Shown in pieces: positions 5,638-18,272 of a stretch of 33,516 nucleotides of DNA. Location: positions 1-33,516 of IMG/VR virus record IMGVR_UViG_3300024505_000010; one strand, 5' to 3'. Source of the stretch: a virus. Every line of letters starts with the position of its first letter. Position 1 is the stretch's first letter. Made by a program: the position numbers and the translations under genes. The notes beneath the pieces are model-generated. The model saw only the letters and a list, made by a program, of their open reading frames with translations, made no database searches and was not told the DNA's origin.

Positions 5638-5927
5638 GCCGCCGCCGCCAAAAGCCCAATGTGTTCGCCAACCGCACCGCCGAGGTCGCGATCCAGCGGA
5701 ACGGGTTGTCCATCAGCATCGGCTCGGTCCCCGCGAGTGACGCCGGGGTGGTTGCCAAGGAGTTGCTTGACCTCCTGCGGACGTTGGAGCGAGCCGGATA
5801 CGAGGAGTTGGTGATTGACGCCGGGGCGTTGCACGGGGGCGGGTTTGACACCCCGGACGAGGACGGTGTTGAGGATTGGGTAATGCCGCCGGAAGCCAAA
5901 AAGCGCGGGATTGGTTTTCACGCTTGA
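5634..5927 (+). CDS. Hypothetical protein, last gene of the 651-5927 block
   Basis: A 97-residue protein starting in an ATGA overlap. It begins with a basic segment (MSRRRQKPNVFANR), then a strand/helix region (ISIGSVPASDAGVVAKELLDLLRTLERAGYEELVIDAG) and an acidic tail region (FDTPDEDGVEDWVMPPEAKK). No family is recognised. It ends directly at a candidate promoter (5924-5952) and a long non-coding region, so it is probably the last gene of the transcript that comes from the tail genes. Confidence 0.75.
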   Translation: MSRRRQKPNVFANRTAEVAIQRNGLSISIGSVPASDAGVVAKELLDLLRTLERAGYEELVIDAGALHGGGFDTPDEDGVEDWVMPPEAKKRGIGFHA

Positions 5928-5952
5928 CCTGTGGTGATGCGTAGTGTATCGT
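5924..5952 (+). promoter_or_regulatory. Candidate sigma-70-type promoter ahead of the structured non-coding region
   Basis: TTGACC at 5924-5929, a 17-base spacer, and TATCGT at 5947-5952. Transcription would start near 5959, right at the first hairpin of the structured stretch. The -10 box is imperfect (TAT then CGT), so this is weaker than the promoter at 6381. The -35 box overlaps the last codons of the preceding gene. It lacks the CAAG spacer motif shared by the promoters at 6381, 7946 and 11767. Confidence 0.45.
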
Positions 5953-5955
5953 AGA

Positions 5956-6128
5956 GCAACGCGATGTTAGGGCATTGCGTACAGCAGTAAAAACAGAGGC
6001 CCCACCGATTCCGATGCCACGCGCTTGATCGCCGTGGACCCTACTCGGAACACGGGGGGCTTCGCTGTTTTTGTGAAACGCTGCGGGCCTACTCTCGGTC
6101 TCCCGCAGGTCGGTAAAACGGATTACCG
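5956..6128 (+). ncRNA. Candidate structured RNA (four consecutive hairpins)
   Basis: No convincing gene covers 5928-6439. Within it, 5956-6128 folds almost entirely. Hairpin I pairs 5956-5962 with 5972-5978 (one mismatch). Hairpin II is an extended rod: 5989-5996 with 6065-6072, 5997-6003 with 6056-6062, 6005-6007 with 6053-6055, 6009-6014 with 6045-6050, 6017-6021 with 6033-6037, and two inner pairs, about 31 pairs in all. Hairpin III pairs 6081-6087 with 6102-6108 (7 bp, perfect). Hairpin IV pairs 6111-6116 with 6123-6128 (6 bp, perfect). The foot of the rod is A-rich on the left and ends in TTTTT on the right. I do not recognise a known RNA family. A DNA element such as an origin is an alternative. 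The rest (6129-6380) has further short stems but nothing decisive. Confidence 0.45.
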
Positions 6129-6380
6129 GCGCACAATCCTGACCGTGCCAGTTGGACCCGATAAACAAATCCACGCTCTGTCAGCCTACAACGTGGTCGG
6201 TCGTCTTGGGTCATTGCTGGGAGCTACACGGGGGCACAGCGGCCCCGCAGGTCACCCGTCGAGGGGATCTCACCACAGCCGGGGTGAGCATCGCAGACGG
6301 CCCCACCGCTGGCCTTCCGTCCCGCGCAGGACCGCTACCCCCGTTGACGACCGGGAATGGCCCCGGCAGAACCATAAGCA

Positions 6381-6409
6381 TTGACACGCGCCAAGGGATA
6401 GTGTACAAT
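6381..6409 (+). promoter_or_regulatory. Strong sigma-70-type promoter for the methyltransferase
   Basis: TTGACA at 6381-6386 (consensus -35), a 17-base spacer, and TACAAT at 6404-6409 (five of six matches to TATAAT). The start site would be near 6416, giving a short leader before the methyltransferase ATG at 6440, which has an AAGGGA ribosome site at 6429-6434. The spacer contains CAAG nine bases after the -35 box, as in the promoters at 7946 and 11767. Confidence 0.85.
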
Positions 6410-6439
6410 GGGCTCGCCACCTTCTATCAAGGGAAACCA

Positions 6440-7963
6440 ATGAAGTTGACGTACGTGGAGTTGTTCGCCGGGGCCGGGGGAATGAGCCTCGGCCTCGAAA
6501 CCGCTGGCTGGCGGTGCGTGGCTCACGCGGAGATTGAACCTCACGCCCGCGCTGTGTTGCGCCATCATTGGCCGGAGGTGCCGCTCTTTGGCGATGTCGC
6601 GGAACTTGACGGCACCCAGTTTCGCGGGGTCACGATGGTCACCGGCGGGTCGCCGTGTCAGGACCTGTCCATCGCTGGAAAGCGCAAGGGGATGACCGAA
6701 GGATCGGGCACCCGCTCGTCGCTGTTCTTTGAGCAGGTCCGCATCTGGAATGAATCCGAAGCCCCCTACATCCTCTGGGAGAACGTTTATGGAGCCTTCA
6801 GCAGTAATGCCGGACGGGATTTCGCCGCCGTCCTATCAGCCATCGTGGGAGGAGCCGTCCCTGTTCCCTCGGACGGATGGGTCCGTGCAGGTGTGGTTGC
6901 AGGACCGACCGGAATCGCCGCGTGGCGGGTATTGGACGCTCAATACTTCGGGGTGCCACAACGCCGTCGCCGTGTCTTTGTCCTCGGTGTTAGAGGCGGA
7001 GGGGTTGATCCCGCAGAAGTACTATCTCTCGCCGAAAGCCTGTCAGGGCATCTTGCGGCGAGCGGAGAAGCGCGGGAAAGCATTGCCACCGATGCTGGAG
7101 AGGGCGCTTCAGTCACGCGCACAGGATTCAGCACTACCGGGTCAGTCGGATACGTCCACGACGTGATGCCAACGCTTCCGCACAAGACGGGATTGGGATG
7201 CGCTGGAGCGCAGATGGTTGGCGTGTTAGAATCGCCCAATGTTCTTGCGCTTGACATATACAACCAGAGCATCAGCCCGAATGGTGTCGCACACACCATT
7301 CGGGCAATGAATACTGGTGAAGGCATTCCGCATACATTGACGGTTGAAGCCATTCCGTTACAGAACCCGACCATCGTCGGCAAGGCACAGAATGGACTCG
7401 GTATCGGGCAATCAGGAGATCCAATGTACTCACTTGAATCGGTGGGGCACGGCGTATTTACCTATGACGCTCGAGGCAACGGCCAAGGTGTTGGCGACAA
7501 CACCTTGGCTGGCGACCACCAGAACCGCGTGACGGATTACACCGCCATCGTTCTTCGTAATCGGGAAGGCAAGCCCGGCGGCGGCAAGGGGCCGCTCCTC
7601 TCTGCCGAGCGTTCGCTGACGCTCGGCACCGCCAACGATCAGGTCGTGTTTACGAAGCAGCAGTTCGGCAGATTTGAGGAAGGTCCAAGCGTTGCGTCAA
7701 CGCTTGGCGCACGGGACCACGCCGCTCAGCACACGGATGTCGCCATTGGTTCGGTTGGCGTCCCCCGTCGCCTGACACCGGTGGAGTGTGAGCGGTTGAT
7801 GGGATGGCCGGACGAGCACACCGCCCACGGCATCAGCGAGGCTGGCAAGGCTTACGCGCTCGCGGACACCGCCCGCTACAAGCTCTGCGGCAACGGGATT
7901 GCCAGCCCCGTGACCGCGTGGATTGGATTTCAACTGGCTGGCCTATTGACAGGCGGCAAGTAG
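6440..7963 (+). CDS. C5-cytosine DNA methyltransferase (Dcm-type)
   Basis: A 507-residue enzyme that transfers methyl from S-adenosylmethionine to C5 of cytosine. ATG 6440 is preceded by AAGGGA and a strong promoter; the frame stays open upstream to 6152, but that part has no family features. Motifs in order: I, FAGAGGMSLGLE (9-20); IV, GGSPCQDLSIAG with nucleophile Cys73; VI, ENV (Glu114); VIII, QRRRR (174-178); IX, RRLTPVECERLMGWPD (443-458); X, YKLCGNGIASPV near the C-terminus. The recognition region between VIII and IX is unusually long (about 185-440) and full of short related segments such as PNGVAHTIRAMNTGEGIPHTL, as in multispecific phage enzymes. The likely role is protection of phage DNA from host restriction. 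A separate gene is overprinted at 6789-7166. No partner nuclease is seen. Confidence 0.95.
   Translation: MKLTYVELFAGAGGMSLGLETAGWRCVAHAEIEPHARAVLRHHWPEVPLFGDVAELDGTQFRGVTMVTGGSPCQDLSIAGKRKGMTEGSGTRSSLFFEQVRIWNESEAPYILWENVYGAFSSNAGRDFAAVLSAIVGGAVPVPSDGWVRAGVVAGPTGIAAWRVLDAQYFGVPQRRRRVFVLGVRGGGVDPAEVLSLAESLSGHLAASGEARESIATDAGEGASVTRTGFSTTGSVGYVHDVMPTLPHKTGLGCAGAQMVGVLESPNVLALDIYNQSISPNGVAHTIRAMNTGEGIPHTLTVEAIPLQNPTIVGKAQNGLGIGQSGDPMYSLESVGHGVFTYDARGNGQGVGDNTLAGDHQNRVTDYTAIVLRNREGKPGGGKGPLLSAERSLTLGTANDQVVFTKQQFGRFEEGPSVASTLGARDHAAQHTDVAIGSVGVPRRLTPVECERLMGWPDEHTAHGISEAGKAYALADTARYKLCGNGIASPVTAWIGFQLAGLLTGGK
6789..7166 (+). CDS. Overprinted gene inside the methyltransferase (conserved LSPKACxGILRRAEKRGK family)
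   Basis: A 125-residue ORF in a different frame from the methyltransferase, lying fully inside it over the motif VI-VIII part and the start of the recognition region. ATG 6789 has GGGAGA at 6777-6782 with 6-base spacing, a good ribosome site. The ORF is open further up to a TTG at 6729. The protein has the pattern GYWTLNTSGCHNAVAVSLSS, then VLE, then IPQKYYLSPKACQGILRRAE, then KRGKALPPMLERAL. From general knowledge, this pattern belongs to a small protein family often found overlapping Dcm-type genes in phages; its function is unknown. Both frames look like real protein at once: the methyltransferase frame keeps QRRRRVFVLG here while this frame keeps its own motif. No frameshift is needed to explain either. 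Confidence 0.7.
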   Translation: MEPSAVMPDGISPPSYQPSWEEPSLFPRTDGSVQVWLQDRPESPRGGYWTLNTSGCHNAVAVSLSSVLEAEGLIPQKYYLSPKACQGILRRAEKRGKALPPMLERALQSRAQDSALPGQSDTSTT

Positions 7964-7974
7964 GGTAGTACCCT
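7946..7974 (+). promoter_or_regulatory. Promoter with overlapping palindrome, ahead of the DNA-metabolism operon
   Basis: TTGACA at 7946-7951, 17-base spacer, TACCCT at 7969-7974. The -35 lies inside the last codons of the methyltransferase. A 13-base perfect palindrome, AGGGTAGTACCCT (7962-7974), covers the spacer end and the whole -10 box, a typical position for a repressor operator. The spacer shares CG and CAAG with the promoters at 6381 and 11767. The leader holds CTCCCATCGGAG (7993-8004), in which CTCC can pair with the GGAG ribosome site. Confidence 0.65.
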
Positions 7975-8010
7975 TGTCATCGCTGGTTCACTCTCCCATC
8001 GGAGGTAGCT

Positions 8011-15290: not shown

Positions 15291-18272
15291 TTGACACCTC
15301 CCAAGCGCAAGCCGTTTCTGGTTCGCGTGAGCGATGCGCTCCGCGTCCTCTCTGATACGACCGAACGCGGTGAGGAGACCCGCGCCATTATTCAGACCAC
15401 GTACCCCAACTTCCCTGCTGGTCAGCAGCAGATGGCGTTGGTGCGGACGGCGAACCCCGGCGAGTACCGATACGACGGCGCGACCATTCGCAATCAGGGG
15501 TTTAGCCGTCACCCCGTGGTTCACGCGTGTATCCGAGCGGTGGCCGACATTGTGGCGTCGGTGCCGCTCGTTGTGTTGCAGGAGCGCGGCAACTACGAGT
15601 CCCGCGTTGGCGAGGACAACCCGTTGCAGAAGCTCCTCGACTATCCCGGCCCGCGATTCACGGCCCGTCAGTTCCGATCGCGTTTCGCCGTGGATTACCT
15701 CGGGTACGGAAACGCGTTCTTCCAGATGGATCGCACCGCGCCGGGACGTGCGCCAGTTGGTCTTCGGCCCGTCAATCCCGAGTCAATGCAACAGGTCTGG
15801 ATTGACCCCGAGGGCGACCCGCGCCGGTACGACTACTCGAATTGGGCGGGTATCGTCGTGCAGGTGCCGGTGGAGGATATGCTCCATTTCCGCGACCTCG
15901 ATATGCCGCGTCCGTTCCAAGCGGACGTGTTCGGGTATCCCCGTGGCGCGACGGCCATCGGGTCGATGCTTGCGGACAACGAGGCGACGCAGTACGTCCG
16001 GCAGGTCGTGACGAACGACGGCACCCCGACGTTCGCCGTCCTGATGGCTGACGAGGCGACCAGCGAGGACGCCAGCGCGATGCAGGACCGCTACCGCGCC
16101 CGCGTGGTGGATCGTGGCAAGCGCGGCACCCCGGCGTTCTTTGGCGCGGTCAAGGACATCAAGCCGCTCGGGTTCACGCTCTCGGACCTTGAGTTCCCCG
16201 ACCTTCGGCGCGTGTCCCGCGAGGACATCTGCGCCGCGTTTGGCGTGGACCCGCGAATGGTCGGTATCGCCTCCGCGTCGAGTGACGGAGGGCTGTCTGG
16301 CGTCCAGTATGCCGAGGCTCGGGCGCGGCTCGTCCAGCATACGATCGAGCCGATGTTCTCCGCGTTGGAGGACGAACTGAACCATTGGCTCGCGCCCGAG
16401 TTTGGCGACGTGTGGATCACCTACGACCACGACAAGCTCCGCGACCTCGTTGAGAACGACACCGAGACCTCGACCCGCATCCGGGCCGAGTACGATATGG
16501 GCCTCCGCACGTGGGAGGAGAGTCGGTCGGCCATCAAGCTGTCGCCGCTCCCGGAGCCGACGGACAGCATCCTCAAGACCGCTGGCAAGGACTTGATTCC
16601 GGCAGCGGTGGCGGTCATCGACCCCTCCACCATCCTCGACCAGCCCCCGGCGACTGACAACGAGACGCCGATGGTCGGTGGGGACACGAACGCGCCCAAG
16701 CAAATCGCCGCCGAGTCGGTAGATGACGTGCCCGGAGAAGGGGCCACGCCGGACGTGGTGGAGCCGCCGACGCGCCGCATTGATCGCGTTCAGGTCCGTG
16801 CCTACTTCGAGGACGCACTTGACGGCGACCAGATTGAGCAGTTGGTCGAATTGCTGGAAGCCCTTGTTGAGAAGGAACTCCCGCCGCAGACGGTCAAGGC
16901 TGCGCTGTTGGCCGCGTTCCCTAACGTGGACCCCGAACTGATTGACGAGATGGTGGCGGGGCTTGAAGGCTTCGAGGTGCCCGAGGAAGAGCCGGAAGCC
17001 CCGGAGATGCCGGAGATGCCCGAGGATACCACCGAGGAGTCTCGGGCCGCTGGCGTGACGAACTTCCCGAACGATGGCGACGATAAGGCTGTCTCGCTTC
17101 GGTCATCGCAATGGGCGCAGTTCCCGGTCGATGAGGCCGAGGACTTGAAGGAGAACTGGCCCGAGATTTGGCGAAAGGGTGGCAACGTCAAGGGCAACGA
17201 GCAGTTCCGCAAGCTGGCCCCAATCGCCAAGCGTGGCGGGAAGCCGGACGGACTGGCCGAGGAGAACGCCATTCGCCTCCGCGAGGCGTGGGTTGCTCGG
17301 CACCGGGGTGACTTCCAGTTGGCCGGAGTGATTGCACAGGTCAAGTGGCTTGCCGTTGGGGATCGCGGCCTCTCGCATATGCGAAAGGTTATCCGCGAGG
17401 CCAAGGCCGCGCTGGAAACGAAGTCGGCCCGCAGCCAGCCGATAACGGGCGGCGAGATGACGCCGACGATGGACCCGCAGATTGACCCCGCGCTCGACCG
17501 CAAGCGGGCTATCTGGGAGCGGGCGATGCAGGAACTCGACCGCACCGAGCAGACCTATCGGGCGACCGCCGAGGCCCTGTTCCGCGCCGAGCGGCCCAAG
17601 ATGACCAAGTCCATCGCGTCCGCTGGCGACTTCGCGACTGCCCGCGCTCGGGTGCTTGACGCCTATCGCACGGGTGGCGAGATGGATGCCGCGTGGCAGG
17701 AGTCATTTACGCCGCTGGTCGCCAAGAGCTATTCGTTCGGGGCGACCGAGGTGGCTGGCAGCGGGGCCGACTTGAAGGCCGATGTGCAGGAGTCAGGCCT
17801 GACCGAGCGGTCGGTGGCGACGGTGCGCGAGGCGATCCGTAAGCGCACGGCGCGGCTGGCCGAGCTAATCGGTGACACGACGGCCCGTGAGGTGATGGCG
17901 GTGATTGAGGCGTCCGAGCGGGCTGGCCTGACCGTGACGGAGACCTCGCGACTGGTCGGCCGTGCGGTCTATGGCGAAAAGCGGGTGACCACGCGTTCGA
18001 CGGCGATTGCCCGTACCGAGTCGGCTGGTGCGCTCTCGCAGGGATCGTGGGACCAAGCGAAGGAGATGGGCGACCTCTATCGCTCGAAGGAGTGGCTGGC
18101 GTTCTCCGACGCCGAGACCCGCGAGACGCATACCGCGTGTATGGCGCAGGGACGCATCGGAATCAACGATGTGTTTACCAATGGCCTGATGTATCCGCTC
18201 GATCCGAGTGGTCCGGCTGATGAAGTCATCAACTGCCGGTGCGTGTTAGCTTACTCGGATGAGCCGGTGTAG
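15291..18272 (+). CDS. Portal protein fused to a Mu F-like head morphogenesis protein
   Basis: A 993-residue protein. A stop in frame at 15276 limits the start; TTG 15291, with GGGG upstream, is the best choice. Residues about 1-430 are an HK97-type portal (IRNQGFSRHPVVHACIRAVA, YLGYGNAFFQMDR, ASASSDGGLSGVQYAEARAR). An acidic linker follows, with a run of Glu/Pro/Met about 565-585. Residues about 599-709 form a compact module (LRSSQWAQFPVDEAEDLKEN, WPEIWRKGGNVKGNEQFRKL) also seen in other phage head proteins. The C-terminus (about 900-990) is a Mu F/SPP1 gp7 domain (ARTESAGALSQGSWDQAKEM; HTACMAQGRIGINDVFTNGL; VINCRCVLAYSDE). The portal dodecamer is the DNA gate; Mu F proteins are minor head proteins. 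These are usually separate genes. Confidence 0.92.
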   Translation: MTPPKRKPFLVRVSDALRVLSDTTERGEETRAIIQTTYPNFPAGQQQMALVRTANPGEYRYDGATIRNQGFSRHPVVHACIRAVADIVASVPLVVLQERGNYESRVGEDNPLQKLLDYPGPRFTARQFRSRFAVDYLGYGNAFFQMDRTAPGRAPVGLRPVNPESMQQVWIDPEGDPRRYDYSNWAGIVVQVPVEDMLHFRDLDMPRPFQADVFGYPRGATAIGSMLADNEATQYVRQVVTNDGTPTFAVLMADEATSEDASAMQDRYRARVVDRGKRGTPAFFGAVKDIKPLGFTLSDLEFPDLRRVSREDICAAFGVDPRMVGIASASSDGGLSGVQYAEARARLVQHTIEPMFSALEDELNHWLAPEFGDVWITYDHDKLRDLVENDTETSTRIRAEYDMGLRTWEESRSAIKLSPLPEPTDSILKTAGKDLIPAAVAVIDPSTILDQPPATDNETPMVGGDTNAPKQIAAESVDDVPGEGATPDVVEPPTRRIDRVQVRAYFEDALDGDQIEQLVELLEALVEKELPPQTVKAALLAAFPNVDPELIDEMVAGLEGFEVPEEEPEAPEMPEMPEDTTEESRAAGVTNFPNDGDDKAVSLRSSQWAQFPVDEAEDLKENWPEIWRKGGNVKGNEQFRKLAPIAKRGGKPDGLAEENAIRLREAWVARHRGDFQLAGVIAQVKWLAVGDRGLSHMRKVIREAKAALETKSARSQPITGGEMTPTMDPQIDPALDRKRAIWERAMQELDRTEQTYRATAEALFRAERPKMTKSIASAGDFATARARVLDAYRTGGEMDAAWQESFTPLVAKSYSFGATEVAGSGADLKADVQESGLTERSVATVREAIRKRTARLAELIGDTTAREVMAVIEASERAGLTVTETSRLVGRAVYGEKRVTTRSTAIARTESAGALSQGSWDQAKEMGDLYRSKEWLAFSDAETRETHTACMAQGRIGINDVFTNGLMYPLDPSGPADEVINCRCVLAYSDEPV

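Follow-up and report, generated by a model that had tools for sequence, protein, structure and literature searches.

A predicted promoter-driven, two-module non-coding RNA from a narrow group of siphovirus-like phages

GOLLD, ROOL, and OLE are large ornate RNAs of bacteria and phages with extensive covarying secondary and tertiary structure, and RNAs of this type form homo-oligomeric assemblies composed of RNA only. GOLLD and ROOL are larger than ~410 nt. Other structured RNAs are accompanied by protein-coding sequences, and proteins sit in intron loops or beside HEARO RNAs. The phi29 packaging RNA is a phage RNA from a short genome and is confined to a single phage group. Riboswitches and other cis-regulators of one gene class have a constant downstream gene. 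Finally, the HK022 put RNA has two stem-loops at or near the transcription start, ahead of phage genes (PMC9378689); it is ~70 nt long and brings about antitermination by direct contact with RNA polymerase.

The window analyzed here is a complete virus record of 33,516 bases. The phage is siphovirus-like and encodes a terminase large subunit, portal, capsid protein, head-tail adaptor, major tail protein, and endolysin. A single ORF of 993 codons at 15291-18272 combines a portal domain with a Mu-F-like head domain (a portal-head-morphogenesis fusion). The RNA locus lies between a conserved small gene ending at 5927 and the C5 DNA methyltransferase gene that starts at 6440. At the gathering score, the Rfam 15 models (4227 curated families) give no match in the window and none in ten relatives (105,570 bases), and permissive scans at E<=10 of window 5850-6500 and of the relatives L103 and L095 return only sub-threshold, chance-like matches. 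GOLLD, ROOL, OLE, HEARO, raiA, introns, riboswitches, tmRNA, 6S, and pRNA are presumably all included in Rfam 15. The phage RNA is likewise large with extensive covarying secondary and tertiary structure; its likeness to GOLLD, ROOL, and OLE is one of kind and not of family. As with HEARO and intron-type RNAs, a protein gene can lie beside or between the RNA modules, but here the adjoining ORFs differ between phages, encoding DNA methyltransferases, a DUF5843-like protein, or a replication initiator, and no interrupted host gene is seen. The phage RNA shares with the phi29 packaging RNA a short genome and a single phage group, whereas its locus in the window precedes the ORF of the terminase large subunit (14011) by ~7.6 kb.

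The preliminary description had proposed, at 5956-6128, an undescribed structured RNA that is not simply the leader of the methyltransferase gene, and this proposal is supported. A rough, non-exhaustive gene caller agrees with its view that the first 13 kb contain no other long non-coding stretch, and folding recovers all four of its hairpins in place (H1, the rod, P1, and P2 in Table 1). The rod, with its 31 pairs in dot-bracket notation, reaches an MFE of −39.7 (z −4.72; 0/200 shuffles as low), and the four hairpins together (5956-6128) reach −73.5 kcal/mol (z −3.78), a value equaled by none of 200 shuffles. For the entire 512-nt gap, the folding energy stands out only slightly from that of shuffles (z −1.97; 4/100 as low), so that on its own it would not have revealed the structure. 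The proof is the comparison between relatives. This comparison confirms a predicted structured RNA of ~410 nt at about 5959-6367, of which the original four hairpins are the 5′ part; the structure of the proposed element thus stands, while its extent was too short, as conserved structure continues to ~6367. Beyond the first description, the last two of the four hairpins belong to a core of far greater size, a pseudoknot joins the first hairpin to the rod in a 5′ module, and in other phages this module stands immediately ahead of protein genes. The promoter-like sequence that had been noticed before the hairpins matches 9/12 consensus letters, and the methyltransferase gene's own promoter matches 11/12, with 0.2 expected per shuffle. 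ARAGORN finds no tRNA or tmRNA in the window.

Table 1. Predicted features of the RNA locus and its flanks (window coordinates).
Feature	Position	Strand	Basis or remark
Sigma70-like promoter TTGACC-17-TATCGT, predicted for the RNA	5924..5952	+	Sequence match
5′ module hairpin H1	5959..5980	+	Loop UAGGG 5968-5972 complementary to rod bulge CCCUA 6039-6043; interaction covaries
5′ module rod, GC-rich, 31 pairs, type I allele	5989..6072	+	Folding, relatives
Core, multi-pseudoknot RNA domain, ~290 nt	6081..6367	+	26 distinct full-length sequences and two diverged
Core helix P1	6081-6087/6102-6108	+	Double changes in 5/7 pairs
P1 loop, possible pairing	6096-6100 with 6141-6145	+	One double change (CG/UA, 6 sequences)
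Core helix P2	6109..6130	+	Double changes in 7/8 pairs; six pairs individually significant
P2 loop pseudoknot	6119-6122 with 6316-6319	+	Double changes in 3/4 pairs; one individually significant
Core helix P3	6148-6151/6217-6220	+	Alignment counts
Core helix P4	6157-6160/6207-6210	+	Alignment counts
Core helix P5	6171-6175/6192-6196	+	Alignment counts
Long-range helix P10	6197-6205 with 6346-6354	+	Double changes in 3/9 pairs
Core helix P6	6229-6233/6243-6247	+	Alignment counts
P7 pseudoknot (P6 loop)	6237-6242 with 6306-6311	+	Double changes in 5/6 pairs; two individually significant
Core helix P8	6256-6260/6296-6300	+	Alignment counts
Terminal pseudoknot	6278-6282 with 6363-6367	+	Alignment counts
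Separate promoter of next gene, TTGACA-17-TACAAT	6381..6409	+	Sequence match
C5 cytosine DNA methyltransferase gene	6440..7963	+	Pfam PF00145, E 2.4e-45; homologue in L029 sits between 5′ module and core

Relatives have been gathered from viral contigs that encode homologues of the methyltransferase or of the exonuclease upstream, and then by blastn and nhmmer, which delimit a conserved non-coding stretch corresponding to window 6081-6371. Two pattern scans using different parts of this stretch return largely identical contig sets. Altogether 28 distinct cores have been obtained, from 35 IMG/VR contigs besides the window; 26 are full and two have a diverged 3′ part. In these two (L020 4543-4703 and L032 9072-9232) the 5′ half is the shared one, while the 3′ half differs, still looks structured, and may represent a second type of core. 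Of two pattern scans run against bacterial and archaeal genomes, one gives no match and the other a single chance match in coding DNA, and blastn finds no core in plasmids and no convincing core in named phages. Several candidate members have been rejected: three loci found by pattern only, with no HMM match (L093, L094, and L098), are regarded as chance loci, two others (L081 and L087) match an 18-nt pattern only, and the one match from the bacterial and archaeal scans (L104, Bifidobacterium) is, by eye, coding DNA. In two isolated Vibrio phages, helene and eugene, the matches cover 39-54 nt with E 0.01-0.04, score 10.7-12.5 bits against the model, and are at chance level. The annotations of these two phages contain gaps of 1.6-1.8 kb with large non-coding stretches (L106 1660-3433 in helene 12B3; L107 1660-3274 in eugene 12A10). 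The family is thus narrow, with one phage group and no isolates in the collections searched.

The helices of the core come from an unsupervised stem search on an alignment of 26 distinct core sequences (A3). The resulting structure has 67 pairs in 12 helices, and 98.6% of the 1739 cells are paired. Double changes are found in 40 of the 67 pairs. Shuffles give 24.8 such pairs, and sliding the partner by 1-3 columns gives 9-15, the latter control being biased in favor of the structure because the structure was derived from the same alignment. Counted by cell, 256 are double-changed as against 73.6 in shuffles. RNAalifold, run on its own alignment of 19 sequences, gives compensatory support to 24 of 58 pairs. 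A structure-blind test of all column pairs against a tree-based null (our own R-scape-like code, 8 null replicates only), which is independent of the 67-pair structure, yields 11 pairs at E<0.05. Ten of them are in the model, including pairs from P7 and from the P2 loop with 6316-6319, both pseudoknots, and the 11th (columns 108/115, UA to CG) extends P5. Compensatory changes among relatives, on which the preliminary description had made its proposal depend, are therefore abundant, and the comparison shows that the predicted core helices and pseudoknots are maintained by them.

Some pairings have been left out of the model. RNAalifold joined the P1 loop to the 3′ end, a pairing that was dropped in favor of P10 and the pairing of the P1 loop with 6141-6145, because both of these show compensatory changes; the P1 loop probably pairs with 6141-6145. 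Another RNAalifold helix (73-77/161-165 of alignment A2, CCGUG/CACGG) conflicts with P6, has zero double changes, and was omitted. P9 (about 6263-6288) can be seen by eye, but the alignment register shifts there and it has been excluded from the counts.

The core has 96 cells with G-U wobbles and 9 with A-C mismatches, an excess which indicates that the plus strand is the RNA strand. It could also be asked whether the locus encodes a short protein, for example from ORF 6025-6384, whose 119-codon frame is open in the window. This has next to no chance of being correct, since no frame is stop-free in more than 4 of the 26 cores and the anchor-to-anchor lengths span all three classes modulo 3; the coding conservation that would have spoken against a structured RNA is not found among the relatives.

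Most relatives carry an H1-like hairpin and a rod ahead of the core, and the rods are of two types. Type I occurs in the window and in L038, L006, and L023, while type II, found in most relatives, has a conserved AGUA...GAAC internal loop that we take to resemble the bulged-G (loop E) motif. Whichever the type, the rod has a single-stranded bulge whose sequence is complementary to the hairpin loop. For type II rods this complementarity is complete in 20/20, over 8/8 or 7/7 nt and in 11 sequence combinations, with loop and bulge boundaries fixed by regular expressions and with G-U allowed (one such pair, in L037). When the partners of the nine 8-nt combinations are permuted, the observed 72/72 is never reached in 50,000 trials (mean 57.3, maximum 70). 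The pairing is also the top covarying helix in an unsupervised scan of an independent rod alignment. An automatic count over the whole rod, in which G-U is allowed and three hairpins are misread, gives a mean of 6.25 for own helices, barely above the 5.25 for crosses. In the window and in the relatives with type I rods the pairing has just 5 bp, and it is kept in distant members (GGUCAA/UUGACC in L101 and L103; GGGAAC/GUUCCC in L011 and L007). L023 has a type I rod (7862-7982) and its relatives L026 and L027 have type II rods, with the downstream gene and the core alike; because these rods differ before the same gene and core, rods are exchanged between phages.

A TAnnnT −10-like box lies 4-8 nt upstream of the first hairpin in 26/27 loci, the exception being L103, and the promoter boxes vary between 6 and 10 of the 12 consensus letters in total. 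The comparison shows that the 5′ module begins at the predicted transcription start. These observations bear on the last part of the preliminary description, which had offered a small RNA, a regulatory element, or a DNA structure such as an origin. The RNA is borne out, and an origin or other DNA-only structure is disfavored because the promoter spacing is fixed and pseudoknots are present. A replication origin, packaging site, or recombination site acting as DNA would fit the long inverted repeats, the location at a boundary of gene exchange, and the DNA replication and repair neighbors. The fixed spacing, the compensatory changes in several pseudoknots, and the occurrence at two genomic positions with one inversion make it very improbable, G-T tolerance alone being insufficient as an argument against single-stranded DNA.

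The position of the 5′ module also suggests a comparison with the HK022 put RNA, in which the module would be a cis-acting transcription antiterminator working on RNA polymerase, with the core or the ORFs as its cargo. With its two stem-loops, the module stands at the predicted transcription start, ahead of varied genes or the core, and putL likewise lies just past its promoter with two stem-loops (PMC9378689). On the other hand, the 5′ module (5959-6072) is 114 nt long as compared with about 70 nt, is usually followed by a non-coding core, and contains the loop-bulge pseudoknot, whereas the passages covered here mention no pseudoknot in put (PMC9378689). Furthermore, no terminator has been found in the window unit. 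The module resembles put in kind and not as a family member, and we regard this reading as rather unlikely.

The 5′ module accompanies 25 of the 28 distinct cores. It lies directly upstream in 19, with about 10 nt between 5′ module and core in the window, and is separated from the core by one ORF in six. The intervening ORF encodes a C5 methyltransferase in L029, an N4/N6 methyltransferase in L008 and L032, and a DUF5843-like protein (below the Pfam cut-off) in L023, L026, and L027. Regulation of the methyltransferase gene in cis, by a leader or a riboswitch, would agree with the rods that abut a methyltransferase start codon in L029 and a methyltransferase gene in L008 and L032. This explanation is quite unlikely, since the window gene has its own, better promoter past the core, the core comes after the gene in L029, and at other loci the module is followed by the core itself or by an ORF for a DUF5843-like protein or a replication initiator, so that there is no constant downstream gene.

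A further possibility is a single, inseparable RNA that has the 5′ module and the core as its domains and the intervening ORFs as inserted passengers. Such an RNA would explain the frequent association of the two modules, directly or across one ORF. It would also explain why two independent rod-pattern scans return 10 and 9 contigs, every one with a core, and why the ORFs fit tightly between the modules, with a start codon ~10-25 nt past the rod and a stop ~10 nt ahead of the core. However, no rod-core covariation is found in 16 sequences, no rod is recognized with the cores of L016 and L088, and three rods (L012, L011, and L007) precede ORFs on contigs in which neither blastn nor covariance model R1 finds a core. 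Because of the missing rod-core covariation and the three coreless rods, the unity of the two modules is unproven, and we consider their inseparability doubtful, though an alternative of some weight.

The coreless 5′ modules (L012 8682-8817, L011 7880-8013, and L007 6352-6483) stand directly before a replication-initiator-like ORF. In L009 (6110-6180) the rod lacks its 5′ side and the core is otherwise L010-like, which may reflect a deletion or an assembly error. The RNA unit occupies two genomic positions. In L016 and L017 the strand of the core is opposite to that of its neighbors, and the core is therefore taken to be an independent gene there. The rod-core insert of L101 and L103 (minus strand, upstream of 373 and 7802) contains a tRNA T-arm-like stretch, GGTTCGATTCC; a tRNA is called in this insert by neither ARAGORN nor Rfam. 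An ArdC-like anti-restriction protein gene follows directly after the core in L103 (6481-7356). In L025 and L023, a GC-rich hairpin with a T-run and then a TTGACA-like promoter can be seen by eye ~100-200 nt past the core. In the window, the region past the core has yielded no intrinsic terminator, so that transcription may run on into the methyltransferase gene.

As a prediction, a discrete non-coding RNA of two modules, driven by its own promoter, has good support from sequence comparison. Our preferred reading, with a probability of roughly 0.6, is a phage non-coding RNA of ~410 nt with its own promoter, composed of a cis-acting 5′ cap or leader module and a trans-acting core. Transcription would start at the base of H1, and the 5′ end would fold at once into H1 and the rod, tied together by the loop-bulge pseudoknot. 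The 5′ module would act in cis on the downstream transcript, as a cap protecting the 5′ end and/or by keeping RNA polymerase processive. The core would work in trans: early in infection it would fold into a compact body and associate with a partner from phage or host, or with additional copies of its own kind. The cis role of the module and the trans role of the core are suggested by the arrangement. Sequence comparison shows that an ORF can separate the two modules and that rod alleles are swapped between phages. The neighborhood, with DNA methyltransferases, an ArdC-like anti-restriction protein, an exonuclease, and a replication initiator, hints at genome protection or replication and is a weak clue only.

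A bolder and rather speculative extension of the preferred reading is that the core is an RNA machine, such as a ribozyme, a homo-oligomer, or a protein-binding scaffold directed against host defense. The 5′ module of the transcript would then be an exchangeable device that acts on the polymerase or on transcript stability from the first nucleotide and drives the RNA core in some cases and a protein cargo, for instance a DNA methyltransferase, in others; the whole would constitute a new functional class of phage RNA. A literature search, largely outside subscription journals and bioRxiv, found no description of the two-module RNA. It appears to be new as an RNA family; as a kind, large phage RNAs of unknown function are already known.

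Few RNAs have so much maintained tertiary structure, and many of those that have been studied well turned out to be catalysts, sensors, or assemblies. The present RNA comes from a compact phage of ~33 kb with little spare DNA, and natural variation suffices to fix its secondary structure ahead of experiment. The rod swaps and the exact placement of DNA-modification genes between the RNA modules raise the question of how RNA might serve phages in organizing their early gene expression.
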